10,624 nucleotides of DNA from Thermoplasmata archaeon. GTDB lineage: Archaea > Thermoplasmatota > Thermoplasmata > GCA-020350865. Every line of letters starts with the position of its first letter. Within the stretch, counting starts at the first letter, position 1. The stretch spans positions 3,264,706-3,275,329 of the forward strand of contig CP070672.1 in the NCBI GenBank assembly GCA_020351895.1, in the 5' to 3' direction. Positions 1,507 to 10,624 of the stretch are shown here, one piece after another. Both the position numbers and the translations under genes were made by a program. The notes below the pieces were generated by a model, which was not told the origin of the DNA, made no database searches, and was given only the letters and a program-made list of their open reading frames with translations.

Positions 1507-2352
1507 CTATCTCCCCTTGGATTTCGATGGTTTCGAGCCCTCAATGATCTTACTTTCTAGTTCGTTTTTAAACCAAACCTCCCGCTGCGGGAAAGGAACA
1601 AAGATGTCATTCTCCTCAAGGTTGGTTTTTATCTTCCACAATAGTTCCCTTCGAACCGGATACCATTCTGGTGAGGGAACCCAGAACCTGACCATGATAT
1701 CAACTGAGCTGTTTCCCAGCTCTTTTACATAGACAGTGGGTTCAGGATTTTTCAGGGTGATTGGGTAGTTATCAATAATATCCTTGATGATTGCCACGGC
1801 CTTGTCAGCATCGTCTCTATATCTAATGCCAACAACATATTCCAGTCTTCTAGCTGGATGAGCCACCAGGTTGGATATATTGGTTGTGAAAACCTTTTCA
1901 TTGGGTATTCTGACGAAGATACCGTCATAGGTTCTGATTATGGTGGACATAATTTTCACATCCTCCACGTATCCCATTTTCCCCTCCACCTCAACCTGAT
2001 CACCCACCTTCATGGGCTTTTCTATTACCAGAAAAATTCCGGCTACCAGGTTCCCTATCACGCTCTGGCTGGCTAGGCCAATGACAAGACCAAGAAAGCC
2101 TGCTACAACCAGAAGACCTGAAGGATCCACTCCAAGGATGGGGAGTATCAAAATAAGTGCAAAGATGATAATGATCAAGTATGTGATTCTAATGATACTT
2201 CTTTGATGCTCCTTTTTCACCTTGTCTTTTAGTGATCTTCTTAAATTGAGGGCAAATGCCTTTCCAATTATCATGGCCGCTAAAAGTATAAGAAACACTA
2301 AAAACAGGTCAAGGAGGGTCAAATCCCCGAAAACCACGAAATCCCAGTTCAT
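1507..2352 (-). CDS. Small-conductance mechanosensitive channel (MscS family)
   Basis: 281 residues from the ATG at 2352, close to the 286-residue E. coli MscS. It forms a membrane channel that opens under tension to release solutes on hypo-osmotic shock. Three hydrophobic segments are visible: about 10-35, 54-76, and the pore-lining TM3 at about 80-111 with the small-residue pattern AGFLGLVIGLASQSVIGNLV. The beta domain follows (KPMKVGDQVEVEGKMGYVEDV), then the conserved IRIPNEKV-type segment (VRIPNEKVFTTNISN) and the alpha/beta C-terminal cytosolic domain. The tail is Lys/Ser-rich. The start at 2352 is preferred over the GTG at 2361 because it overlaps the upstream stop as ATGA and has GGAG 8 nt upstream. 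It is translated after, and probably with, the DUF432-like gene. Confidence 0.93.
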   Translation of the reverse strand: MNWDFVVFGDLTLLDLFLVFLILLAAMIIGKAFALNLRRSLKDKVKKEHQRSIIRITYLIIIIFALILILPILGVDPSGLLVVAGFLGLVIGLASQSVIGNLVAGIFLVIEKPMKVGDQVEVEGKMGYVEDVKIMSTIIRTYDGIFVRIPNEKVFTTNISNLVAHPARRLEYVVGIRYRDDADKAVAIIKDIIDNYPITLKNPEPTVYVKELGNSSVDIMVRFWVPSPEWYPVRRELLWKIKTNLEENDIFVPFPQREVWFKNELESKIIEGSKPSKSKGR

Positions 2353-3056
2353 AGACCCCACTCCATGATGAATTTTGTAGAGACAACAGGAATCTTCCTA
2401 GCCGTGTAAAGCTCGAGGGATTTACTCATTCCCTTATAAATTGGAGAGTCGAAGAATTCTGTCTCACCGATTCCTCCCGTATATATCTTCATTGTGGCCC
2501 TCATTGACACTGTTTTGTTTCCATAATAAATCTTCATCCCATAGGCATTGAAAACAGGCTGGGTTATCTCATGCCATCTTCCAGTCGTATTATTGATTGT
2601 AAGCTCTATAACACCTTCTTTGTGGGGATTTATAGAGGGCACTGAGTCATATACCTCACTTTCCCAGAACTTACAGATAATCCCCCCTCTTACCTCCCCA
2701 TAAAGTGTGAACTTCTGCTTAACCAGGGTCAGGATATCTAGTACCTTAAATTCCTCCAGTCCGGATATGAATATTCCTATTTCTATGGGGAATTTCAGGT
2801 AGATTATTCTCTTTACCTTAGGTTCGATTACAATGGGATTTTCAGGCTTAATAAGAAGGTATGGTGTTAATTCCCTGGGTTTGTGAAGGGGCTCAATGGG
2901 GTTTACATGGATTTTATTACTTTTTGTGAGAAGGATTTTTTCAATCGTTTCTCCACTGAACTCCCTTTTATAGATGAGATTGTCTCCCTTTTTTTCCACG
3001 GTAATTAAAATATCTTCATTTTCTATCTTTGAGGGGACAGCATGAAACCCAAACAT
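2349..3056 (-). CDS. DUF432-like archaeal protein of unknown function
   Basis: 235 residues, beginning MFG and rich in beta strands, with segments such as KRIIYLKFPIEIGIFI, KFTLYGEVRGGIICKFWESEVY, GVIELTINNTTGRWHEI and AYGMKIYYGNKTVSMRATMKI. The overall pattern (MFG start, LYG..GGIICK, ELTINN, YYGN, C-terminal MEWGL) resembles the archaeal DUF432 family, assigned from memory of the family's appearance. No signal peptide, membrane segment or catalytic motif is evident. Its stop codon overlaps the start of the MscS gene (ATGA, 2349-2352), so the two are translationally coupled and a role related to the channel or to osmotic or membrane stress is a reasonable inference. The start has no Shine-Dalgarno sequence and a TATA box 20-30 nt upstream, consistent with a leaderless mRNA. 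Confidence 0.65.
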   Translation of the reverse strand: MFGFHAVPSKIENEDILITVEKKGDNLIYKREFSGETIEKILLTKSNKIHVNPIEPLHKPRELTPYLLIKPENPIVIEPKVKRIIYLKFPIEIGIFISGLEEFKVLDILTLVKQKFTLYGEVRGGIICKFWESEVYDSVPSINPHKEGVIELTINNTTGRWHEITQPVFNAYGMKIYYGNKTVSMRATMKIYTGGIGETEFFDSPIYKGMSKSLELYTARKIPVVSTKFIMEWGL

Positions 3057-3121: not shown

Positions 3122-3772
3122 ATGTTGGGAATATATGCACCCCTCTACATGAAGGAAGAAATCAACTATGTTATGATAGATCCCGAATGCTTCTATGGTA
3201 TAGTGCTTTCAACAATCGAGGTCTTTAACAAGGAAACAACGGGTTTCCTAATGGGCAATTACAGAAAAAGGATAATAAAAGGTAAAAAGAGAAATATTGT
3301 AGCCTGTGAATTTGCCTATCCTTTGCAGACGGCCTATAGAAGTCCCACTTCCGTGGTGAGAGGAAATGTGAGTGCATTTGAGAGGGTAAGGGCAACGATA
3401 CCATCCATGAACCTATATCTATTGGGAGAATATCATAGTCATCCATCAACTAATGCCATCTTGACAAAAGAGGATATGGATTATATAAAGGACAGACTCG
3501 AGCAGATCTATGGCAAAAAGGAGAATCTAATCAAGAATTATTGGCTGGAATTGGTGATATCGGTTAATAGAAAGAAGTATAAAAAACCCCACAAACTCGG
3601 TTGGTCTTGGCAGGATTACCCCCAAAAAGCAAAATGCAATGTAAAGATCAATCCCTATCTGGGTTACGACCTGACTTTTGGTGGATATTGGGTTTATGTC
3701 GATAATGGTAAAATGAGGAAGATAGAAACCACAATATATATTCCCTGGGTGAGAGATTACTGGTCGGGGTAA
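3122..3772 (+). CDS. JAMM/MPN+ metalloprotease-like protein
   Basis: 216 residues. A full JAMM zinc-protease signature is present: Glu38 in KETTGFLMGNY, then His105-Ser-His107 in GEYHSHPS, and Asp118 after the spacing HxH-x7-T-x2-D (Thr115 in place of the usual Ser). The set Glu/His/His/Asp is complete, so the domain should bind zinc and be active. Archaeal JAMM proteins remove ubiquitin-like SAMP modifiers or act as related isopeptidases; the substrate here is unknown. The protein is longer than minimal JAMM domains: after about residue 140 it has a basic stretch (NRKKYKKPHKLGWSW) and a Tyr/Trp-rich C-terminus that I do not recognise. GGAG at 3108-3111, 10 nt before the ATG, supports this start over Met10. 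The gene is divergent from the DUF432/MscS pair and followed by a T8 run. Confidence 0.85.
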   Translation: MLGIYAPLYMKEEINYVMIDPECFYGIVLSTIEVFNKETTGFLMGNYRKRIIKGKKRNIVACEFAYPLQTAYRSPTSVVRGNVSAFERVRATIPSMNLYLLGEYHSHPSTNAILTKEDMDYIKDRLEQIYGKKENLIKNYWLELVISVNRKKYKKPHKLGWSWQDYPQKAKCNVKINPYLGYDLTFGGYWVYVDNGKMRKIETTIYIPWVRDYWSG

Positions 3773-4176: not shown

Positions 4177-4184
4177 AATGATTA

Positions 4185-4192
4185 TTTTTATA
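4185..4192 (+). promoter_or_regulatory. TATA box of the Lrp-led operon
   Basis: TTTTTATA, within a longer TTTTTATAATATATGG, is centred about 22 nt before the ATG at 4211. This distance favours a leaderless or nearly leaderless transcript and agrees with the lack of a properly spaced ribosome binding site. Confidence 0.45.
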
Positions 4193-4210
4193 ATATATGG
4201 ATGTGAAAGG

Positions 4211-4669
4211 ATGGCAAGGAAGGCAAAACTTGATAAAATAGATAGAAAGATTATTGAACTTTTAAAAGAAAACAGCAGAATGACCATATCAGATATTACT
4301 CGTGAGATAAAGGACCTCACCGAATCTACCATAAGATATAGATTAGAAAATTTGGATCAAGAAGGATATATAAAAAACTATACTGTTGTCCTAGATTCAA
4401 AGAAGTTTGAAAAAAATATTTCTGTAATATTTAATTTAAAAGTCCTTCCTGAGCACATCGATAAAGCAATAGAATACCTGAGAGAACTTGGGACCTTATC
4501 TAGCGTGTACCTTACCACCGGAACCTACCCCATTGTTGTCATAGGCTATTTCAAAAATCAAAAAGAGATAACAGAGTTCATCACTAAAAAATTAAAAAAT
4601 GTTCCATTAGTAGACTATGATGTGGCCCAGATACTAAAAAAGGAAAGGGAAACACATTATTGGGCCTAA
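4211..4669 (+). CDS. Lrp/AsnC-family transcription regulator
   Basis: 152 residues from ATG 4211, the normal family length. An N-terminal winged helix-turn-helix is clear (LDKIDRKIIELLKENSRMTISDITREI, then the recognition helix ESTIRYRLENLDQEGYIKNYT). It is followed by the ligand-binding/oligomerisation RAM domain (about 60-145: VIFNLKVLPEHIDKAIEYLREL, VYLTTGTYPIVVIGYF). Such proteins usually form octamers or dimers that sense amino acids. An upstream in-frame ATG at 4178 would add a hydrophobic, atypical N-terminus and lies before the TATA box, so 4211 is chosen. It sits 46 nt before the DHS-like gene in the same direction. Control of this amine-related operon, with an amino acid such as arginine as a possible effector, is inferred from position only. 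Confidence 0.92.
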   Translation: MARKAKLDKIDRKIIELLKENSRMTISDITREIKDLTESTIRYRLENLDQEGYIKNYTVVLDSKKFEKNISVIFNLKVLPEHIDKAIEYLRELGTLSSVYLTTGTYPIVVIGYFKNQKEITEFITKKLKNVPLVDYDVAQILKKERETHYWA

Positions 4670-4674
4670 GGAGG

Positions 4675-4707
4675 ATATTTATATTCAATATTTTTAAAAA
4701 GGTGGGG
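4675..4707 (+). promoter_or_regulatory. Possible internal promoter/operator before the DHS-like gene
   Basis: The Lrp-DHS gap holds a TATA-like ATATTTATATTC (4675-4686), an interrupted palindrome ATATT-C-AATAT (4681-4691) that could be an Lrp-type operator, and GGTGGGG (4701-4707) as the ribosome binding site for ATG 4716. An AAGGAGG at 4668-4674, across the Lrp stop codon, is not followed by any usable start at normal spacing. Confidence 0.3.
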
Positions 4708-4715
4708 TGCAAAAT

Positions 4716-5747
4716 ATGAAAAAAGAAGATTTTTTAAAAGAAGAAATAGAACATATAAATATTGAGAACTTTGATTCTACACAAATTATTGAAACTTTTA
4801 GAAAAATGTCTTTTCAGGCGAGAAATCTGGCAAATGCGGCGTCAATTTATGATACAATGCTTGTTGACAATGATTGCTCAATAATCCTTTGTTTGGCAGG
4901 ATCATTATTTAGCGCTGGATTAAAGGTTGTAGTTCGGGATTTAGTAAGGCATAATATGGTTGATGCAATCGTATCAACCGGTGCAATTATGGTGGATCAA
5001 GATTTCTTTGAAGCTTTGGGTTATAAACACTATAAAGGTTCCCCATACATAGATGATGAAATGCTCAGAAGAATGATGATAGACAGAATTTATGATACCT
5101 ATATCGACGAAGAGCAACTCAGAATATGTGATATGACAGTTGCTGAGATTGCAGATTCTCTTCTTCCAAAACCTTATTCTTCACAAGAATTCCTTTGGGA
5201 GATGGGACGTTACCTTCACGAGAATAAAAAAGATAATGACTCAGTTGTATTGGAATGCTTTAAAAGGGATGTACCTATATTCGTGCCGGCATTTTCGGAT
5301 TGCTCAGCGGGTTTTGGATTGTTGTTACACCAGCGTAAACGCGGTAATAAACCAAAGGTTACCATTGATAGTGTAAAGGATTTTTTTGACTTAACAAGAA
5401 TAAAAACCCTCTCCAAAGAAACTGGATTGGTCATGATTGGGGGTGGTGTTCCAAAAAATTTCGCTCAGGACATCATAGTTGCTGCTGATATATTAGGGGC
5501 TAATGTAAGTATGCATAAATATGCAATACAGATAACAGTAGCGGACGAGAGAGATGGAGGACTTTCCGGCTCAACCTTAAAGGAAGCTCATTCATGGGGC
5601 AAGGTAAACAATGTGAATGAACAGATGGTATTTTCTGAGGCGACCATAGCCTTTCCGCTCATTGCAAGTTATGTGTTTCATAAGGGTAATTGGAATAAAA
5701 GGAAACCTAAAGCCTTCATAAAAAAGTTGTGGGAGATAAAAAAATGA
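4716..5747 (+). CDS. Deoxyhypusine synthase-like NAD-dependent aminobutyltransferase
   Basis: 343 residues from ATG 4716 (GGTGGGG lies upstream; the in-frame GTG at 4707 overlaps that site and is not used). The DHS fold is evident: [19 protein letters not shown] near the N-terminus, [40 protein letters not shown] (242-248) and [14 protein letters not shown] with the imine-forming Lys296 (human DHS Lys329), then [15 protein letters not shown] cleaves spermidine with NAD and transfers the aminobutyl group. Canonical archaeal DHS, which modifies aIF5A, has a TTAGGIEED-type motif; this protein has [10 protein letters not shown], like the DHS-like branch that includes homospermidine-synthase-type enzymes. 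The acceptor may therefore be a small amine and not aIF5A. Its stop overlaps the arginine decarboxylase start by ATGA, supporting a joint pathway. Assignment to the superfamily is secure; the exact reaction is open. Confidence 0.9.
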
Positions 5748-6286
5748 TTCCCACAAAAGTATTTTTTACAAAAGGTATCGGTGTTCATAAAGATAAACTG
5801 GCATCATTTGAACAGGCTCTGAGAAAAGCCGGTATTGAGAAATACAATTTGGTCAATGTATCAAGTATATTCCCTCCCGGGTGCAAAATAATTACCAAAG
5901 AAAAAGGATTAGAGTTGTTAAAACCAGGACAAATAACATATGTTGTTCTCGCCAGAAACTCCACCAATGAACCAAACAGATTAGTGTCAGCCGCTATAGG
6001 ATTAGCTAAACCTGCTGACAAGAAAGATTATGGATACCTTTCTGAGCATCATGCATTTGGTGAAACCGCAAGAAAAACTGGAGATTATACCGAAGATCTT
6101 GCAGCCACAATGCTAGCCACTACACTCGGCATAGAATTTAATATCGAAACTGCGTGGGATGAAAGAAAACAATTGTACCGAACCTCAGGGAAGATAATCA
6201 ATACAATGAACATCTGTCAATCGGCGAAGGGTAAAAAGGAAGGAGTCTGGACCACAGTCGTTGCCGCTGCAGTATTCATAATATAA
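5744..6286 (+). CDS. pdaD: Pyruvoyl-dependent arginine decarboxylase
   Basis: 180 residues from ATG 5744, similar to the 165-residue Methanocaldococcus jannaschii enzyme. It converts arginine to agmatine, the first step of archaeal polyamine synthesis. The proenzyme cleaves itself between two serines to make a pyruvoyl cofactor; the site is Ser40-Ser41 in [14 protein letters not shown], with Asn35 six residues before Ser41 as in the family. The SEHHAFGE segment (100-107) probably supplies the catalytic Glu (Glu101). Other family blocks are [27 protein letters not shown] and [17 protein letters not shown] [15 protein letters not shown] at the C-terminus. The ATG overlaps the upstream stop as ATGA and has GGGAGAT 7 nt before it; a GTG at 5729 in the same frame is less likely. 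Translation is probably coupled to the DHS-like gene. Confidence 0.94.
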
Positions 6287-6325
6287 CATATTATTCTCAC
6301 CAAGAACTTATGGGGATATAATCAT

Positions 6326-8488
6326 ATGAAAGTGGCCATAATTTACAATAAGGACATGTCCGGAGTAATCAATCGCTTCGGCTTACAAAACAAAGAAATA
6401 TACAATCCCAAGACAGTTAAATTGATTGCAGAGGCCCTTGAGAATGGAGGACACAACGTGCGCATTATTGATGGGAACATGCACGTCATCGAGACCTTAC
6501 AGGAGTTCATGCCCAGGGTGATGGAATGTGAGCGGCTGGGCATGGTATTCAACATGGCATATGGAATTCAGGGCGAAAGTAGATATACACACCTACCAGC
6601 TTTGCTTGAGATGCTGGGAATACCATATGTAGGCTCCAATCCCGAGGGCCATGCACTGGCTCTTGATAAGGTAATTGCCAAGATCATAATGCAGCAAAAC
6701 AAAATACCAACTCCAAAGTTCTGGGTGTTTTCCACAGGGGATGAGGATATGAGCACTTTGGAGTACCCCGTCGTGGTCAAACCGAAAATGGAAGCGGTCT
6801 CATATGGCTTGGAAATCGTAAATAGCGAGGCGGAGCTGCGTAAAGCCGTAAAATATACAATCAAGGAGTTTCAGCAACAAGCACTGGTTGAGCAGTTCAT
6901 CCGGGGCAGAGAATTCATTGTTGGCATACTGGGCAACATCGATCCCGAGGCTTTTCCCGTCTTGGAAATCGACCTGGGGGGAGATTCTGATGCCATTCAA
7001 AGCGCCATGGACAAACTAAAAGAACCTCGAGAAAAAATCTGCCCAGCAAATATTTCTCAAAAACTTTCTGATGAAATGGTTAGACTCAGCAAGGAAGCCT
7101 TTAAGGTTCTTCATCTAAGGGATTTTGCCCGCGTGGATATTCGAATTGACGAGAATGAAAACATATTCATACTTGAGATAAATTCAATGGCCAGTCTCGG
7201 AAAGACGGGGTCCTATGTCCATGCAGCAGGCGTGGCCGGATACAGCTATGGTCGCCTTATAAATAAGATCCTAGATGTAGCGACTGTTAGATACTTTTCT
7301 GAAGATATCCCAATTATCTCTGATAATGAGGTTCCTAACAAGAAGAAACTCCCTGAGTCTGTTCGTGTTCGAACTTTTTTAAGGAGCAAACAAGAAAATA
7401 TCGAAAAACTGCTGGCCAAGATGGTCAACACAAACACATACGTACGAAATGTTGAGCGTGTAAATGAGCTTGGCCAGTTCATCTCGAAGCAGCTGAAACC
7501 CCTGGGATTTGAGCATCGTTCCATTCCACAAGCAGAGGTAGGTAATATACTCCTTTTTAGCAACACTGGCGACGAAAAGTTCGATTTTCTGTTTCTCACA
7601 CATCTGGATAATTCAGTTCCGTTTAAAAGGCATGTTTATTACAGCCAAAAAGGGCATAAGCTCTTTGGGACAGGAATATGGGATAGCAAGGGTGGTATAG
7701 CTGTTTTGATATCTGCCTTTCGCGCTTTGCGATTTATGCGGGTTCTGCGTAAAATGAAAATTGGAATATTGTTAGTTACCGATGAAAATCTTCAGGGTAG
7801 GATAAGCGGTGACACTATTTTTGAGATTTCCAGTAAGGCGAAGACCATAATAGGTATAAACGGGGCTTCCACAGAAAGTTCTGTTATTACATCCCGCTCG
7901 GGTGCGGCTGTGTACAACTGCCAGATGAATCTGATCAATGCAAAAGATGCTATAGACGTTGCAAAGGCCAACTCGAAATTCACACGGCTTCTTACAAAAC
8001 TTGCCAAACTTTCAAATGAAGAGGATGGAGTCATCGTAAGTCCCAGGGAGGTGAAGATCAACTCAAACATATCAAATTTATTTTCCCATGGAGAAGCGGT
8101 TTTAAGCGTAAGATTCAATAAACCTGAGCAGGCTGAGATTTATGATGATAAAATCCATCACCTCGTAAAAAAGGTAAGAAGCGATAAATTCCAGATGCAA
8201 ATCAGTGGAGCGATTCGGAGGAATCCCATGGTTAAAAATGAAAAGATCGAAAAGATTTATCAGAAGGTGAAAAAAATAGCCGATCAAATCGATGTACGTA
8301 TTCTTGAAGAACACAGGTGGAGTTCGTCCAATATCTGTTTTGTAGATCCCAAAAAACCTAAAATCGATGGTCTTGGCCCAGTAGGCGATGTCTCAAATGA
8401 AAACGAGGAATATATATTGCAGCACAGTTTGATTGAAAGAGCTACTTTGCTTGCACTCCTTTTAATGGAAATACATAAAGGAAGGTAG
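6326..8488 (+). CDS. ATP-grasp (Ddl-like) ligase fused to an M20 peptidase-like domain
   Basis: 720 residues with GGGGAT 8 nt before the ATG. Residues about 1-325 are a D-Ala-D-Ala-ligase-type ATP-grasp: FNMAYGIQGESR, PALLEMLGIPYVGS, YPVVVKPK with ATP-contacting Lys152, LVEQFIRGREFIVGI, and the Mg ligands Asp271, Glu284 and Asn286 (ARVDIRID, LEINSMASL). This half should join a carboxylate to an amine using ATP. Residues about 360-720 have an M20 metallopeptidase/deacylase fold: HLD (426-428), GTGIWDSKGG (Asp453), TDEN (486-489 region) and a C-terminal DGLGPVGD block. Compared with carboxypeptidase G2, three metal ligands are Asn (488, 512, 691), and the lid-domain His is not seen, so peptidase activity is doubtful. 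It sits 39 nt after the decarboxylase gene and 3 nt before the GGT-like gene. The substrate is unknown; an amine made by the upstream enzymes is a reasonable guess. Confidence 0.87.
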   Translation: MKVAIIYNKDMSGVINRFGLQNKEIYNPKTVKLIAEALENGGHNVRIIDGNMHVIETLQEFMPRVMECERLGMVFNMAYGIQGESRYTHLPALLEMLGIPYVGSNPEGHALALDKVIAKIIMQQNKIPTPKFWVFSTGDEDMSTLEYPVVVKPKMEAVSYGLEIVNSEAELRKAVKYTIKEFQQQALVEQFIRGREFIVGILGNIDPEAFPVLEIDLGGDSDAIQSAMDKLKEPREKICPANISQKLSDEMVRLSKEAFKVLHLRDFARVDIRIDENENIFILEINSMASLGKTGSYVHAAGVAGYSYGRLINKILDVATVRYFSEDIPIISDNEVPNKKKLPESVRVRTFLRSKQENIEKLLAKMVNTNTYVRNVERVNELGQFISKQLKPLGFEHRSIPQAEVGNILLFSNTGDEKFDFLFLTHLDNSVPFKRHVYYSQKGHKLFGTGIWDSKGGIAVLISAFRALRFMRVLRKMKIGILLVTDENLQGRISGDTIFEISSKAKTIIGINGASTESSVITSRSGAAVYNCQMNLINAKDAIDVAKANSKFTRLLTKLAKLSNEEDGVIVSPREVKINSNISNLFSHGEAVLSVRFNKPEQAEIYDDKIHHLVKKVRSDKFQMQISGAIRRNPMVKNEKIEKIYQKVKKIADQIDVRILEEHRWSSSNICFVDPKKPKIDGLGPVGDVSNENEEYILQHSLIERATLLALLLMEIHKGR

Positions 8489-8491
8489 TAA

Positions 8492-10120
8492 ATGGATTTT
8501 AAACGAATTGAATCGAATTTTAAACCGACAAAGGATGGAAAGTGTGCAAAGGCCACAAACGGCCTAATATCCACTGCATTTCCAGATGCGACAAATGTCG
8601 GGATTGAAATTTTAAAGAAAGGTGGTAATGCTGTAGATGCCGCTTGTGCTTCCGCTTTGACATTAGGCGTTTGCGAGCCCCAGGCCAGTGGCCTTGGCGG
8701 TCAAACCATGATGCTTATATACACCGGTAAAAAAGTGAAAGCAATAGACGGATCCTCAAGGGCACCTTCTTTGGCACATTCAAAGGCCATATACAAAGGA
8801 GACCGTGCAATTGGTTATCGAGCTACAACCGTCCCGAGTACACCGGCCACTCTATGGTATGTACACAACCGTTACGGTCGGCTTGGGTGGACAGATATAT
8901 TAGATCCTGCCATAAATATCGCTGAAAAAGGATATCGAATAACTAAATTACAGAACCAACTTCAAAAGCGGGAGTTAAAGGATTTCAAAAAAGTGGAGTC
9001 AAGATCCGGTGCCAAGTACTTTCTAAAAAAGGGTAATCCATATAAGGTGGGCGATATTTTCAAACAACCCGAACTCGCCTCTCTTTTAAGACGACTCGCA
9101 GAAAGAGGAATAAATGAATTCTATCAGGGAAAAGTTGCAAAACAAATCGATGCAGACATGCGCGAGAATGGAGGCTTACTTCGATATGATGACCTTTCCC
9201 TTATTCCGTGGCCCATTGAGCGCAGACCCCTTAAACGCAAGTTCAGAGGAATGACAGTCTATACCATGCCTCCACCAGGAGCTGGTAGAACTCTTCTTTT
9301 CACCTTACTCATGCTAGATGCACTCCCCCCAAAAATATTCATTAAGGATAAGAATAAACAATATTATCTTTTGACTGAGGTTTTCAGGAAGGCGTTTTTG
9401 GAGCGGGAAGATAGACCCTTTGATCCGAACTTCTATCCACAGTTGACCGAGAAACAGATGCTAAATAAGAAGTATGCTAAGAAATGTATATTGGAAATTC
9501 TTAAAAAAGTAGATCGAACTCTCCTTCCAACTATAATCACAGATGATGAGCTAAGGGGGGAAACAACACATCTTTCTGTAATCGATAGCGAAGGTATGGC
9601 AGTGAGCTTGACCCAATCCATCGAGAAAGTTTATGGTAGTAAAGCTGCAGCGGAAGGTCTGGGATTTCTTTACAACAATTATTTAATAGATTTCGAATAC
9701 AAAATGATCTCACATCCATTTTACCTAAGACCAAATGCCGTTCCATGGGCTACTGTTGCACCCTCAATGATTTTTAATGAGGAAAATCTATGGATGGTTG
9801 TGGGTAGCCCAGGTAGCGAACGAATATTCTCAACAATTGCACAATTCTTGATTAATATAATCGATAAAAATATGTCAATGGATAAAGCCATGCAAGCGCC
9901 GCGTTTGCATTGTTCTCTCGGCGGTAGGGTTAGTCTTGAAGCAAAGCGTTTTCCTGATTCTCTTGTTGGTTATCTAAGGGAAAAAGGATATAGGATAGAT
10001 AGAAGGGAGCCATATGCATTCTATTTAGGTGCAATTCATGCTGTAATAAACAAACATGATAATTCTGGTTTTCATGGAGTTGCCGAAGTAAGAAGGGATG
10101 GTACTGCCGGGGGATTCTGA
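8492..10120 (+). CDS. Gamma-glutamyltranspeptidase-superfamily Ntn hydrolase
   Basis: 542 residues, the usual length. No signal peptide is present, so it is probably cytoplasmic, unlike periplasmic bacterial GGT. The N-terminal block (LISTAFPDATNVGIEILKKGGNAVDAACA, ASGLGGQTMMLIY) and large-subunit core are typical. Self-cleavage should occur before Thr358 in GETTHLSVID, giving a light chain of 185 residues that contains YNNYLIDF, VGSPGS (437-442) and a KAMQAPRLH helix. Relative to E. coli GGT, the Arg that holds the gamma-glutamyl carboxylate (DFRE) aligns with Ser88 (DGSSRAP, though Arg90 is near), the Ser pair 462-463 aligns with Ala420-Thr421, and the second Gly of GSPGG is Ser442. Donor specificity is thus probably not plain glutathione; an amide formed by the adjacent ligase is a candidate. 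The start, 3 nt after the ligase stop with AAAGGAAGGT upstream, is clear. Confidence 0.9.
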   Translation: MDFKRIESNFKPTKDGKCAKATNGLISTAFPDATNVGIEILKKGGNAVDAACASALTLGVCEPQASGLGGQTMMLIYTGKKVKAIDGSSRAPSLAHSKAIYKGDRAIGYRATTVPSTPATLWYVHNRYGRLGWTDILDPAINIAEKGYRITKLQNQLQKRELKDFKKVESRSGAKYFLKKGNPYKVGDIFKQPELASLLRRLAERGINEFYQGKVAKQIDADMRENGGLLRYDDLSLIPWPIERRPLKRKFRGMTVYTMPPPGAGRTLLFTLLMLDALPPKIFIKDKNKQYYLLTEVFRKAFLEREDRPFDPNFYPQLTEKQMLNKKYAKKCILEILKKVDRTLLPTIITDDELRGETTHLSVIDSEGMAVSLTQSIEKVYGSKAAAEGLGFLYNNYLIDFEYKMISHPFYLRPNAVPWATVAPSMIFNEENLWMVVGSPGSERIFSTIAQFLINIIDKNMSMDKAMQAPRLHCSLGGRVSLEAKRFPDSLVGYLREKGYRIDRREPYAFYLGAIHAVINKHDNSGFHGVAEVRRDGTAGGF

Positions 10121-10325
10121 CGAGCTCTTATTCAACAATAGCTCTAATATAACGCGGTTTAACAATAAAAGAAGAACTTTGGGCGCAAGATTTCTTTTTC
10201 GATAACGATAGGTATAAAGTTAAAGATTGAATTATTGGAGAGCGATAAAATGGGGCTGTGTGCCTGATATCGGTAACATACATGAATTAATATTGTGCAG
10301 TTTTATGTTATATTGCAGTGATTTT
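10121..10325 (+). other. 205-bp intergenic region between GGT-like and GNAT genes
   Basis: It contains a weak inverted repeat GAGCT/AGCTC (around 10122-10142), a T-rich stretch (10190-10199) as a possible end of the operon, and a TATA-like GGTATAAAG (10211-10219). There is also a five-codon open frame at 10250-10267 with GGAG at 10237-10240. TTTTATGTTATATT (10301-10314) may be the TATA box of the acetyltransferase gene. None is strong. No tRNA or other RNA gene was seen. Confidence 0.35.
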
Positions 10326-10624
10326 ATGAGCGAGATAAAAATCGTACCACTACAATCCAATGAGCTTGATGAAGCTGCAGAATTATTGAGTAAGGCTTTC
10401 ATTAACACACCCTTTACCGGAAAAATCATGGGTGGGCACACCGAAAAGCACCGCAAACAACTTCAGATGGGTTTTAAGATGATGTTGGGGAAGAAACCTG
10501 GTACAGTGGTTGTAGCAAAGGAGAATGGAAATATGGTTGGCGTTATGCGAATGGTGAAGTGGCCTGATTGCCAGAATTCCATTCCAAAAGGTGTCGAGAC
10601 AATTCCTCTTCTTCTTTTTGCCAG
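10326..10624 (+). CDS. GNAT-family N-acetyltransferase, 3' end missing
   Basis: The frame is open from ATG 10326 to the window edge (99 complete codons). The sequence MSEIKIVPLQSNELDEAAELLSKAF is the usual GNAT beta1-helix1 start, and GTVVVAKENGNMVGVMRMVKW (about 60-80) matches the beta2-beta3-beta4 region. The acetyl-CoA-binding R/QxxGxG/A motif would lie beyond the edge, so the call rests on the N-terminal half only. No ribosome binding site precedes the ATG; the AT-rich box about 20 nt upstream fits a leaderless transcript. An in-frame ATG at 10305 would add seven residues. Many GNAT enzymes acetylate amines, including polyamines, so a link to the preceding operon is possible, but the 205-nt gap argues for a separate transcript. 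Confidence 0.65.
   Translation, partial: MSEIKIVPLQSNELDEAAELLSKAFINTPFTGKIMGGHTEKHRKQLQMGFKMMLGKKPGTVVVAKENGNMVGVMRMVKWPDCQNSIPKGVETIPLLLFA

Follow-up and report, generated by a model that had tools for sequence, protein, structure and literature searches.

Pairs of an ATP-dependent ligase and an amide-cleaving enzyme are known in principle, as are all of the protein folds described below. In glutathionylspermidine synthetase/amidase (GspS), an ATP-dependent amide ligase is coupled to an amidase and acts on a polyamine conjugate, and ATP-grasp ligases with a hydrolase partner occur in the NAGGN osmolyte system and in other ATP-grasp amidoligase neighbourhoods. For polyamine synthesis itself, the closest described enzyme is the caldomycin synthase CdmS of Thermus thermophilus (TTHA1570). 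CdmS is reported to join two agmatines, to use neither spermidine nor putrescine, and to carry Phe204 and Leu286 in place of Asp243 and Asp316 of human DHS, two named active-site differences (PMC10981699). Against these systems we set a run of five genes in a 10,624-nucleotide stretch of DNA from a Thermoplasmata archaeon (hereafter, the window). The run is composed of two functional modules, one with known chemistry (second and third genes) and one that is the new part (fourth and fifth genes).

The ORF list places five same-strand (+) ORFs across positions 4178-10120 of the window and, together with the Pfam and NCBIfam scans, confirms that the genes are real, closely spaced and of the families that an earlier note on this DNA had given. 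The run opens with an Lrp/AsnC-type regulator (4178..4669, +; PF13412, E 3.4e-10; PF01037 barely above cut-off), which scored under every equivalog cut-off in the NCBIfam scan and has an internal Met at 4211 as an alternative start, the one chosen in the earlier note. The DHS-like, caldomycin synthase-type gene follows (4707..5747, +); a start at the Met at 4716 leaves a 46-nt gap and agrees with an identical 343-aa database copy (P0121). A pyruvoyl-dependent arginine decarboxylase gene comes third (5729..6286, +) and has a possible start at a Met at 5744, which gives a -4 overlap with the DHS-like gene. After a gap of 39 nt, the fourth gene (6326..8488, +), here called LIG, encodes a Ddl-type ATP-grasp domain (PF07478, 1.5e-32) joined to a degenerate M20/carboxypeptidase-G2-like domain (PF01546, 5.3e-8). 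Only 3 nt separate LIG from the last gene (8492..10120, +), which encodes a GGT-fold Ntn hydrolase with Thr358 as the nucleophile and an altered gamma-glutamyl site (PF01019, 1.1e-119). On the other strand, 1.1 kb upstream of the run, an MscS-type mechanosensitive channel gene (1507..2361, -; PF00924, 3.1e-21) overlaps a gene for a DUF432 protein (2349..3056, -; PF04254, 1.2e-39). Between this pair and the run, positions 3122-3772 weakly match a JAB/MPN-like family (PF14464, 20.3 bits, cut-off 25). An incomplete ORF that comes after the GGT-fold gene (10227-10624) seems, on visual inspection, to encode a GNAT acetyltransferase and not the FGase-like protein that is usual at this place. An Rfam scan of the window (E up to 0.1) returned zero matches and thus no riboswitch lead.

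The first module would work as its homologues do. Its decarboxylase scores above the family cut-off (PF01862, 4.7e-63; NF009064, 213.5 bits, cut-off 207) and has a Ser-Ser pair, aligned with 2qqd, which we take to be the processing site; both features uphold the earlier proposal that agmatine is made from arginine. The DHS-like protein exceeds the NCBIfam cut-off for caldomycin synthase (NF002699, 569.9 bits, cut-off 500) and misses those for canonical DHS (330.3 vs 434 and 240.3 vs 304.25 bits, the rest lower). Alignments show the catalytic lysine of the SWGK motif and, as in CdmS, Phe and Leu where human DHS has Asp243 and Asp316; the CdmS-type protein of another LIG locus, L027, has Cys at the CdmS Leu position. 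The nearest relative of the window protein (81%) is also from a Thermoplasmata archaeon. We dropped the idea that Met307 marks a lost catalytic lysine, as the lysine sits in the intact SWGK motif; of 120 homologues, 119 have Met at the Met307 position and one has Ile. Judged by these residues and scores, the window enzyme belongs to the agmatine-coupling and not the spermidine-using type, and the aminobutyl transfer from spermidine suggested in the earlier note gives way to a predicted coupling of two agmatines. By analogy with the homologues, the route of this module would run from arginine through agmatine to caldomycin. The window lacks a gene for the ureohydrolase needed to convert caldomycin to homospermidine.

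The second module begins with LIG, whose ATP-grasp domain spans approximately residues 1-320 and whose M20/carboxypeptidase-G2-like domain spans approximately residues 345-720. Several database copies of LIG are labelled D-alanine-D-alanine ligase (Ddl), an enzyme that archaea without peptidoglycan should not need. Among the NCBIfam matches listed, the best Ddl score of LIG is 166.8 bits, below the cut-off of 243. The ATP-grasp residues K115, K152, R269, D271, E284 and N286 are intact in 52/52 aligned LIG proteins; all 52 have Gly at the Ddl acceptor Ser position, which we take to bind the acceptor carboxylate. An AlphaFold2 model of LIG (mean pLDDT 85.8) matched 1cg2 (TMt 0.79) and 8evx (TMt 0.83) in Foldseek. 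We checked the aligned proteins at carboxypeptidase G2 (CPG2) positions E175, E176, D141, H112, D114 and E200, which we assume to be catalytic and metal positions of the M20 fold. Glu occupies the E176 position in 0/52 and the E175 position in 9/52, Asp the D141 position in 9/52, His the H112 position in 38/52 and Asp the D114 position in 52/52, and no conserved Glu is found around E200. The M20 half is thus degenerate, with these catalytic and metal residues not conserved. LIG relatives are numerous (1145 of 7993 candidates scored E<=0.001) and are encoded in at least 526 genome stretches, including those of ANME-related archaea, Nitrospina and marine ammonia oxidisers. In a tree of 77 rows, nine archaeal rows form a set that includes the window protein (support 99). 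The locus counts that follow refer to the best 80 of these at least 526 genome matches, many of them on short contigs, where a missing neighbour does not always carry information.

A GGT-fold gene directly follows LIG on the same strand in 43 of the 78 loci that have a following gene (best 80 of at least 526), with gaps of -79 to 9 nt, mostly -4. In 32 of these 43 loci the next gene is N-formylglutamate-amidohydrolase-like (FGase, PF05013), the third gene of many cassettes and one that is missing directly after the GGT-fold gene in the window. There is a GGT-fold gene no more than 6 kb from LIG in 25/42 loci, and none in 40 control windows of similar size, which were placed at round numbers along seven LIG genomes. 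This comparison favours the LIG loci because the neighbour queries were drawn from them (any match between a query and the locus it came from was left out). Both sets of counts reject a chance adjacency of the two genes. The hydrolase is not always of this fold: within 6 kb of LIG, 52/80 loci have a GGT-fold gene, 16/80 a class-I GATase gene, none has both and 12 have neither (best 80 of at least 526). Mapping the GATase label on the LIG tree (77 rows) takes 6 changes, of which at least 4 are forced by supported branches. LIG has therefore exchanged its GGT-fold and GATase partners repeatedly, suggesting an equivalent step and one role for two unrelated amide-cleaving enzymes.

The active sites of both partners narrow what that step may be. 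All 53 GGT-fold proteins from LIG loci, that of the window included, keep the Thr nucleophile, and 52 of them, again with that of the window, carry Ser, Glu and Tyr where the E. coli enzyme has R114, N411 and Q430, residues that presumably hold the gamma-glutamyl moiety by its head group. A gamma-glutamyl group is accordingly improbable as the natural acyl group, contrary to the earlier suggestion that this is the group removed. The window protein scarcely exceeds the TIGR00066 cut-off (359.7 vs 357.85). A positive side chain lost and a negative one gained would suit an amine-bearing substrate. The GATase partners have a Cys-His-Glu triad in 17/17 proteins and are nearest to GMP synthase subunit A, at 104.7 bits and below the cut-off of 198. 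Such a partner could free ammonia from glutamine for LIG to turn a carboxylate into a carboxamide, as could the GGT-fold enzyme, and an ammonia-using LIG would also be consistent with the Gly at the presumed acceptor-carboxylate position of Ddl. However, the residue after CLGH, usually Gln, is Glu in 16/17 of these proteins, and the GGT-fold partner lacks the residues that would bind glutamine, so that we regard an ammonia-using amide synthetase as decidedly unlikely.

How closely the ligase and its hydrolase are tied to polyamine genes varies with lineage. A caldomycin synthase above cut-off is present in 1/50 LIG genomes, that of the Phycisphaerales member G022, where the CdmS-type gene of locus L027 ends 3.4 kb before LIG with four genes in between. 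Among 199 Planctomycetota, 14 have a CdmS above cut-off, 6 have a LIG match (E<=1e-120; five of the six are partial, ~400-480 positions) and G022 alone has both, leading us to reject a general CdmS-LIG association. The pyruvoyl decarboxylase is found in 13/50 LIG genomes and near LIG in G022 only. The arrangement of genes in the window itself was seen in no other genome examined. This and the Planctomycetota counts would be expected had the two modules come together in this genome by chance or through a shared promoter only; yet the 3.4-kb spacing in G022 and the proximity of another polyamine operon to LIG in Bacteroidota make such a coincidence very improbable in our estimation.

That operon is of a different kind, with genes for a PLP decarboxylase, an agmatinase and a DHS-family protein. 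Its decarboxylase is nearest to biosynthetic arginine decarboxylase (below cut-off), its agmatinase scores above cut-off and its DHS-family protein scores below all cut-offs; the polyamine operons adjacent to LIG in other phyla thus use a decarboxylase type unrelated to the pyruvoyl enzyme. Among 56 Marinifilaceae genomes, LIG is present in 8 and the DHS-like gene in 22, and all 8 LIG-bearing genomes have the polyamine operon near LIG, at a distance of 1.2-8.4 kb and in one of two arrangements (Fisher 2.3e-4 for the co-occurrence of LIG and the DHS-like gene, the genomes being related). The operon lies 0.7 kb from LIG in L040 (Bacteroidales). Marinilabiliaceae have LIG in 12/60 genomes and the DHS-like gene in 1/60, hence in 1/12 of those with LIG; the sole carrier is L026, where it is 9.1 kb from LIG, and nine further stretches from 8 LIG-bearing genomes of this family contained no polyamine operon. 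LIG itself is present in 1/247 evenly drawn Bacteroidota. A DHS-family match was found in 29/50 LIG genomes, and in 5 of these 29 such a match is no more than 10 kb from LIG, where 0.29 would be expected; four of these 5 genomes belong to the Bacteroidota and do not count as independent cases. Among the matches of the remaining 24 genomes there are presumably true hypusine enzymes, for which linkage to LIG is not required. Taken one by one, the PLP decarboxylase, agmatinase and DHS-like genes are not significantly enriched near LIG (2/42 loci vs 0/40 controls). L015 has a decarboxylase near LIG in a genome (G012) without a DHS-family match, and the ANME, Nitrospina, Nitrosomonas and Nitrosopumilus loci examined have no decarboxylase or DHS-family gene within their 6-kb neighbourhoods.

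The polyamine link of LIG is, in sum, recurrent but lineage-limited, and the ligase-hydrolase module reaches much wider than polyamine metabolism. The part of the earlier note that read the run as a polyamine operon survives in the recurrence of LIG beside decarboxylase and DHS-family genes (8/8 LIG-bearing Marinifilaceae, L040 and L027) and fails as a general rule, given the single CdmS among 50 LIG genomes and the ANME, Nitrospina, Nitrosomonas and Nitrosopumilus loci. Similarly, LIG and its GGT-fold partner occur without the DHS-like/decarboxylase pair in most lineages and with it in several. The pathway originally envisaged, in which a dedicated operon would serve to attach a gamma-glutamyl or peptidyl group to agmatine or a polyamine and to take it off again, draws on the adjacency in the window and on this same recurrence. 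It sits poorly with the many LIG-GGT loci that have no decarboxylase or DHS-family gene and with the changed gamma-glutamyl positions in 52/53 hydrolases, and we consider it to have a distinctly small chance of being right.

Genes for ion transport are more frequent neighbours. Of the 42 full-flank loci, 24 have an MscS, MscS-like, CorA, MgtE or CNNM gene no further than 6 kb from LIG, against 1/40 of the same control windows with such a gene; the queries were again drawn from the LIG loci, but the gap between the two counts is wide. The MscS cluster alone is within this distance in 17/80 loci (best 80 of at least 526). In three Methanosarcinales/ANME-2 loci (L003, L004 and L011), LIG, GGT-fold and FGase genes are followed by DUF432 and MscS genes, the pair that is also present in the window. 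The 80 loci include 15 named isolates (e.g., Propionigenium maris, Marinifilum, Thermohalobacter and Nitrosomonas marina), all of which we understand to be marine or saline. The common channel and Mg-transport neighbours, the presumed habitats of these isolates and the rarity of polyamine neighbours in most LIG genomes would all be in keeping with a LIG and hydrolase that make and recycle an amide-type compatible solute other than a polyamine, with polyamine genes as mere neighbours in a salt- or stress-response island. We consider this explanation possible though rather unlikely, as a polyamine operon adjoins LIG in all 8 LIG-bearing Marinifilaceae, in two arrangements, and polyamine genes also do so in L040, L027 and the window.

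Other genes were seen around LIG. The Marinilabiliaceae genome G503 has two LIG copies (L161 and L163), each beside an MscS gene. A GNAT-nitrilase fusion (PF00583 and PF00795) is encoded in L015 (6996-8519), L016 (5349-6866), L024 (17832-19367) and L026 (17369-18943, directly upstream of the polyamine operon), with shorter pieces in L068 and L076; it is found near LIG in Bacteroidota, with clustered pieces in thaumarchaeal loci too, and its nitrilase part is closest to N-carbamoylputrescine amidase, far below cut-off. Its enrichment near LIG is not significant (2/42 vs 1/40 controls). A protein adjoining the MscS genes of L026 (14260-17238) had no Pfam or NCBIfam match and has clustered relatives near LIG in L016 and L024 (965-992 aa in this group). 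Finally, the LIG flanks of L036, L045, L056, L058, L059, L065 and L051 contain other predicted amidoligase systems, with RimK-like ATP-grasp genes, PF05618 protease and AstE-like genes, and circularly permuted ATP-grasp genes.

We tentatively propose, at somewhat less than an even chance, that the run comprises two modules and that LIG and its partner reversibly make and cleave an amide of a small, probably amine-bearing solute that serves osmotic balance or that of (divalent) cations. In the first module, arginine would be decarboxylated to agmatine and two agmatines joined to give caldomycin, a homospermidine precursor. For the second, we infer the substrates, the directions of the reactions and the physiological role as follows. 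LIG would join a carboxylate to an amine or to ammonia as an amide at the expense of ATP, and its M20 half, being degenerate, would have a part in binding or dimerisation and not in hydrolysis. The GGT-fold hydrolase, or a class-I GATase-type enzyme elsewhere, would break the amide, whose acyl part would be without the amino-acid head group that a true GGT recognises. Together, ligation and hydrolysis could determine how much of the solute is present. In some lineages this solute may be, or may be supplied by, an agmatine- or homospermidine-type product of polyamine synthesis, the polyamine being perhaps a substrate or a co-regulated product. A bolder and rather improbable version would have LIG and its hydrolase mask the charge of agmatine-derived polyamines or a similar cationic solute reversibly, the amine being capped as an amide and uncapped, alongside mechanosensitive and Mg transport when salinity changes, in archaea and many bacterial phyla.

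The earlier impression that the ligase/hydrolase pair is uncharacterised appears to hold, as the literature listings searched contained no description of the gene set, nor of the LIG architecture with exchangeable partners. LIG has a partner that is both conserved and exchangeable, and its relatives are many in groups of environmental importance. Identification of the LIG product would set right a misannotation and might bring to light an osmolyte or polyamine-conjugate pathway that is so far missing, and in the window the predicted caldomycin route beside LIG provides a concrete list of candidate substrates.

Among the described systems, GspS shares with the LIG/hydrolase pair the idea of a ligase with an amidase; its synthetase and CHAP amidase domains are absent from the ten window proteins (Pfam, E 1e-3). 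The same ten proteins include no Puu-type glutamate-putrescine ligase of the glutamine synthetase fold, the ligase here being an ATP-grasp enzyme. The NAGGN system is alike in pairing a ligase with a hydrolase and in a possible osmotic role but differs from LIG in architecture, and its trio of models is not among the NCBIfam matches listed for LIG (25 of 63). The window DHS-like enzyme has the family score, catalytic lysine and Phe/Leu positions of Thermus CdmS (PMC10981699), whereas it is archaeal, is encoded beside a pyruvoyl decarboxylase and LIG, and has no ureohydrolase gene with it in the window. LIG has the ATP-grasp fold and ATP-site residues of Ddl but scores below the Ddl cut-offs, has Gly at the acceptor Ser position and is fused to an M20-like half. 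This C-terminal half is predicted by the model to share the fold of carboxypeptidase G2 and M20 peptidases (1cg2, TMt 0.79), whereas their catalytic and metal residues are not conserved in it. Lastly, the GGT-fold protein of the window has the fold, Thr nucleophile and TIGR00066 score of a gamma-glutamyltranspeptidase but belongs to a set in which three gamma-glutamyl-binding positions are changed in 52/53 members.
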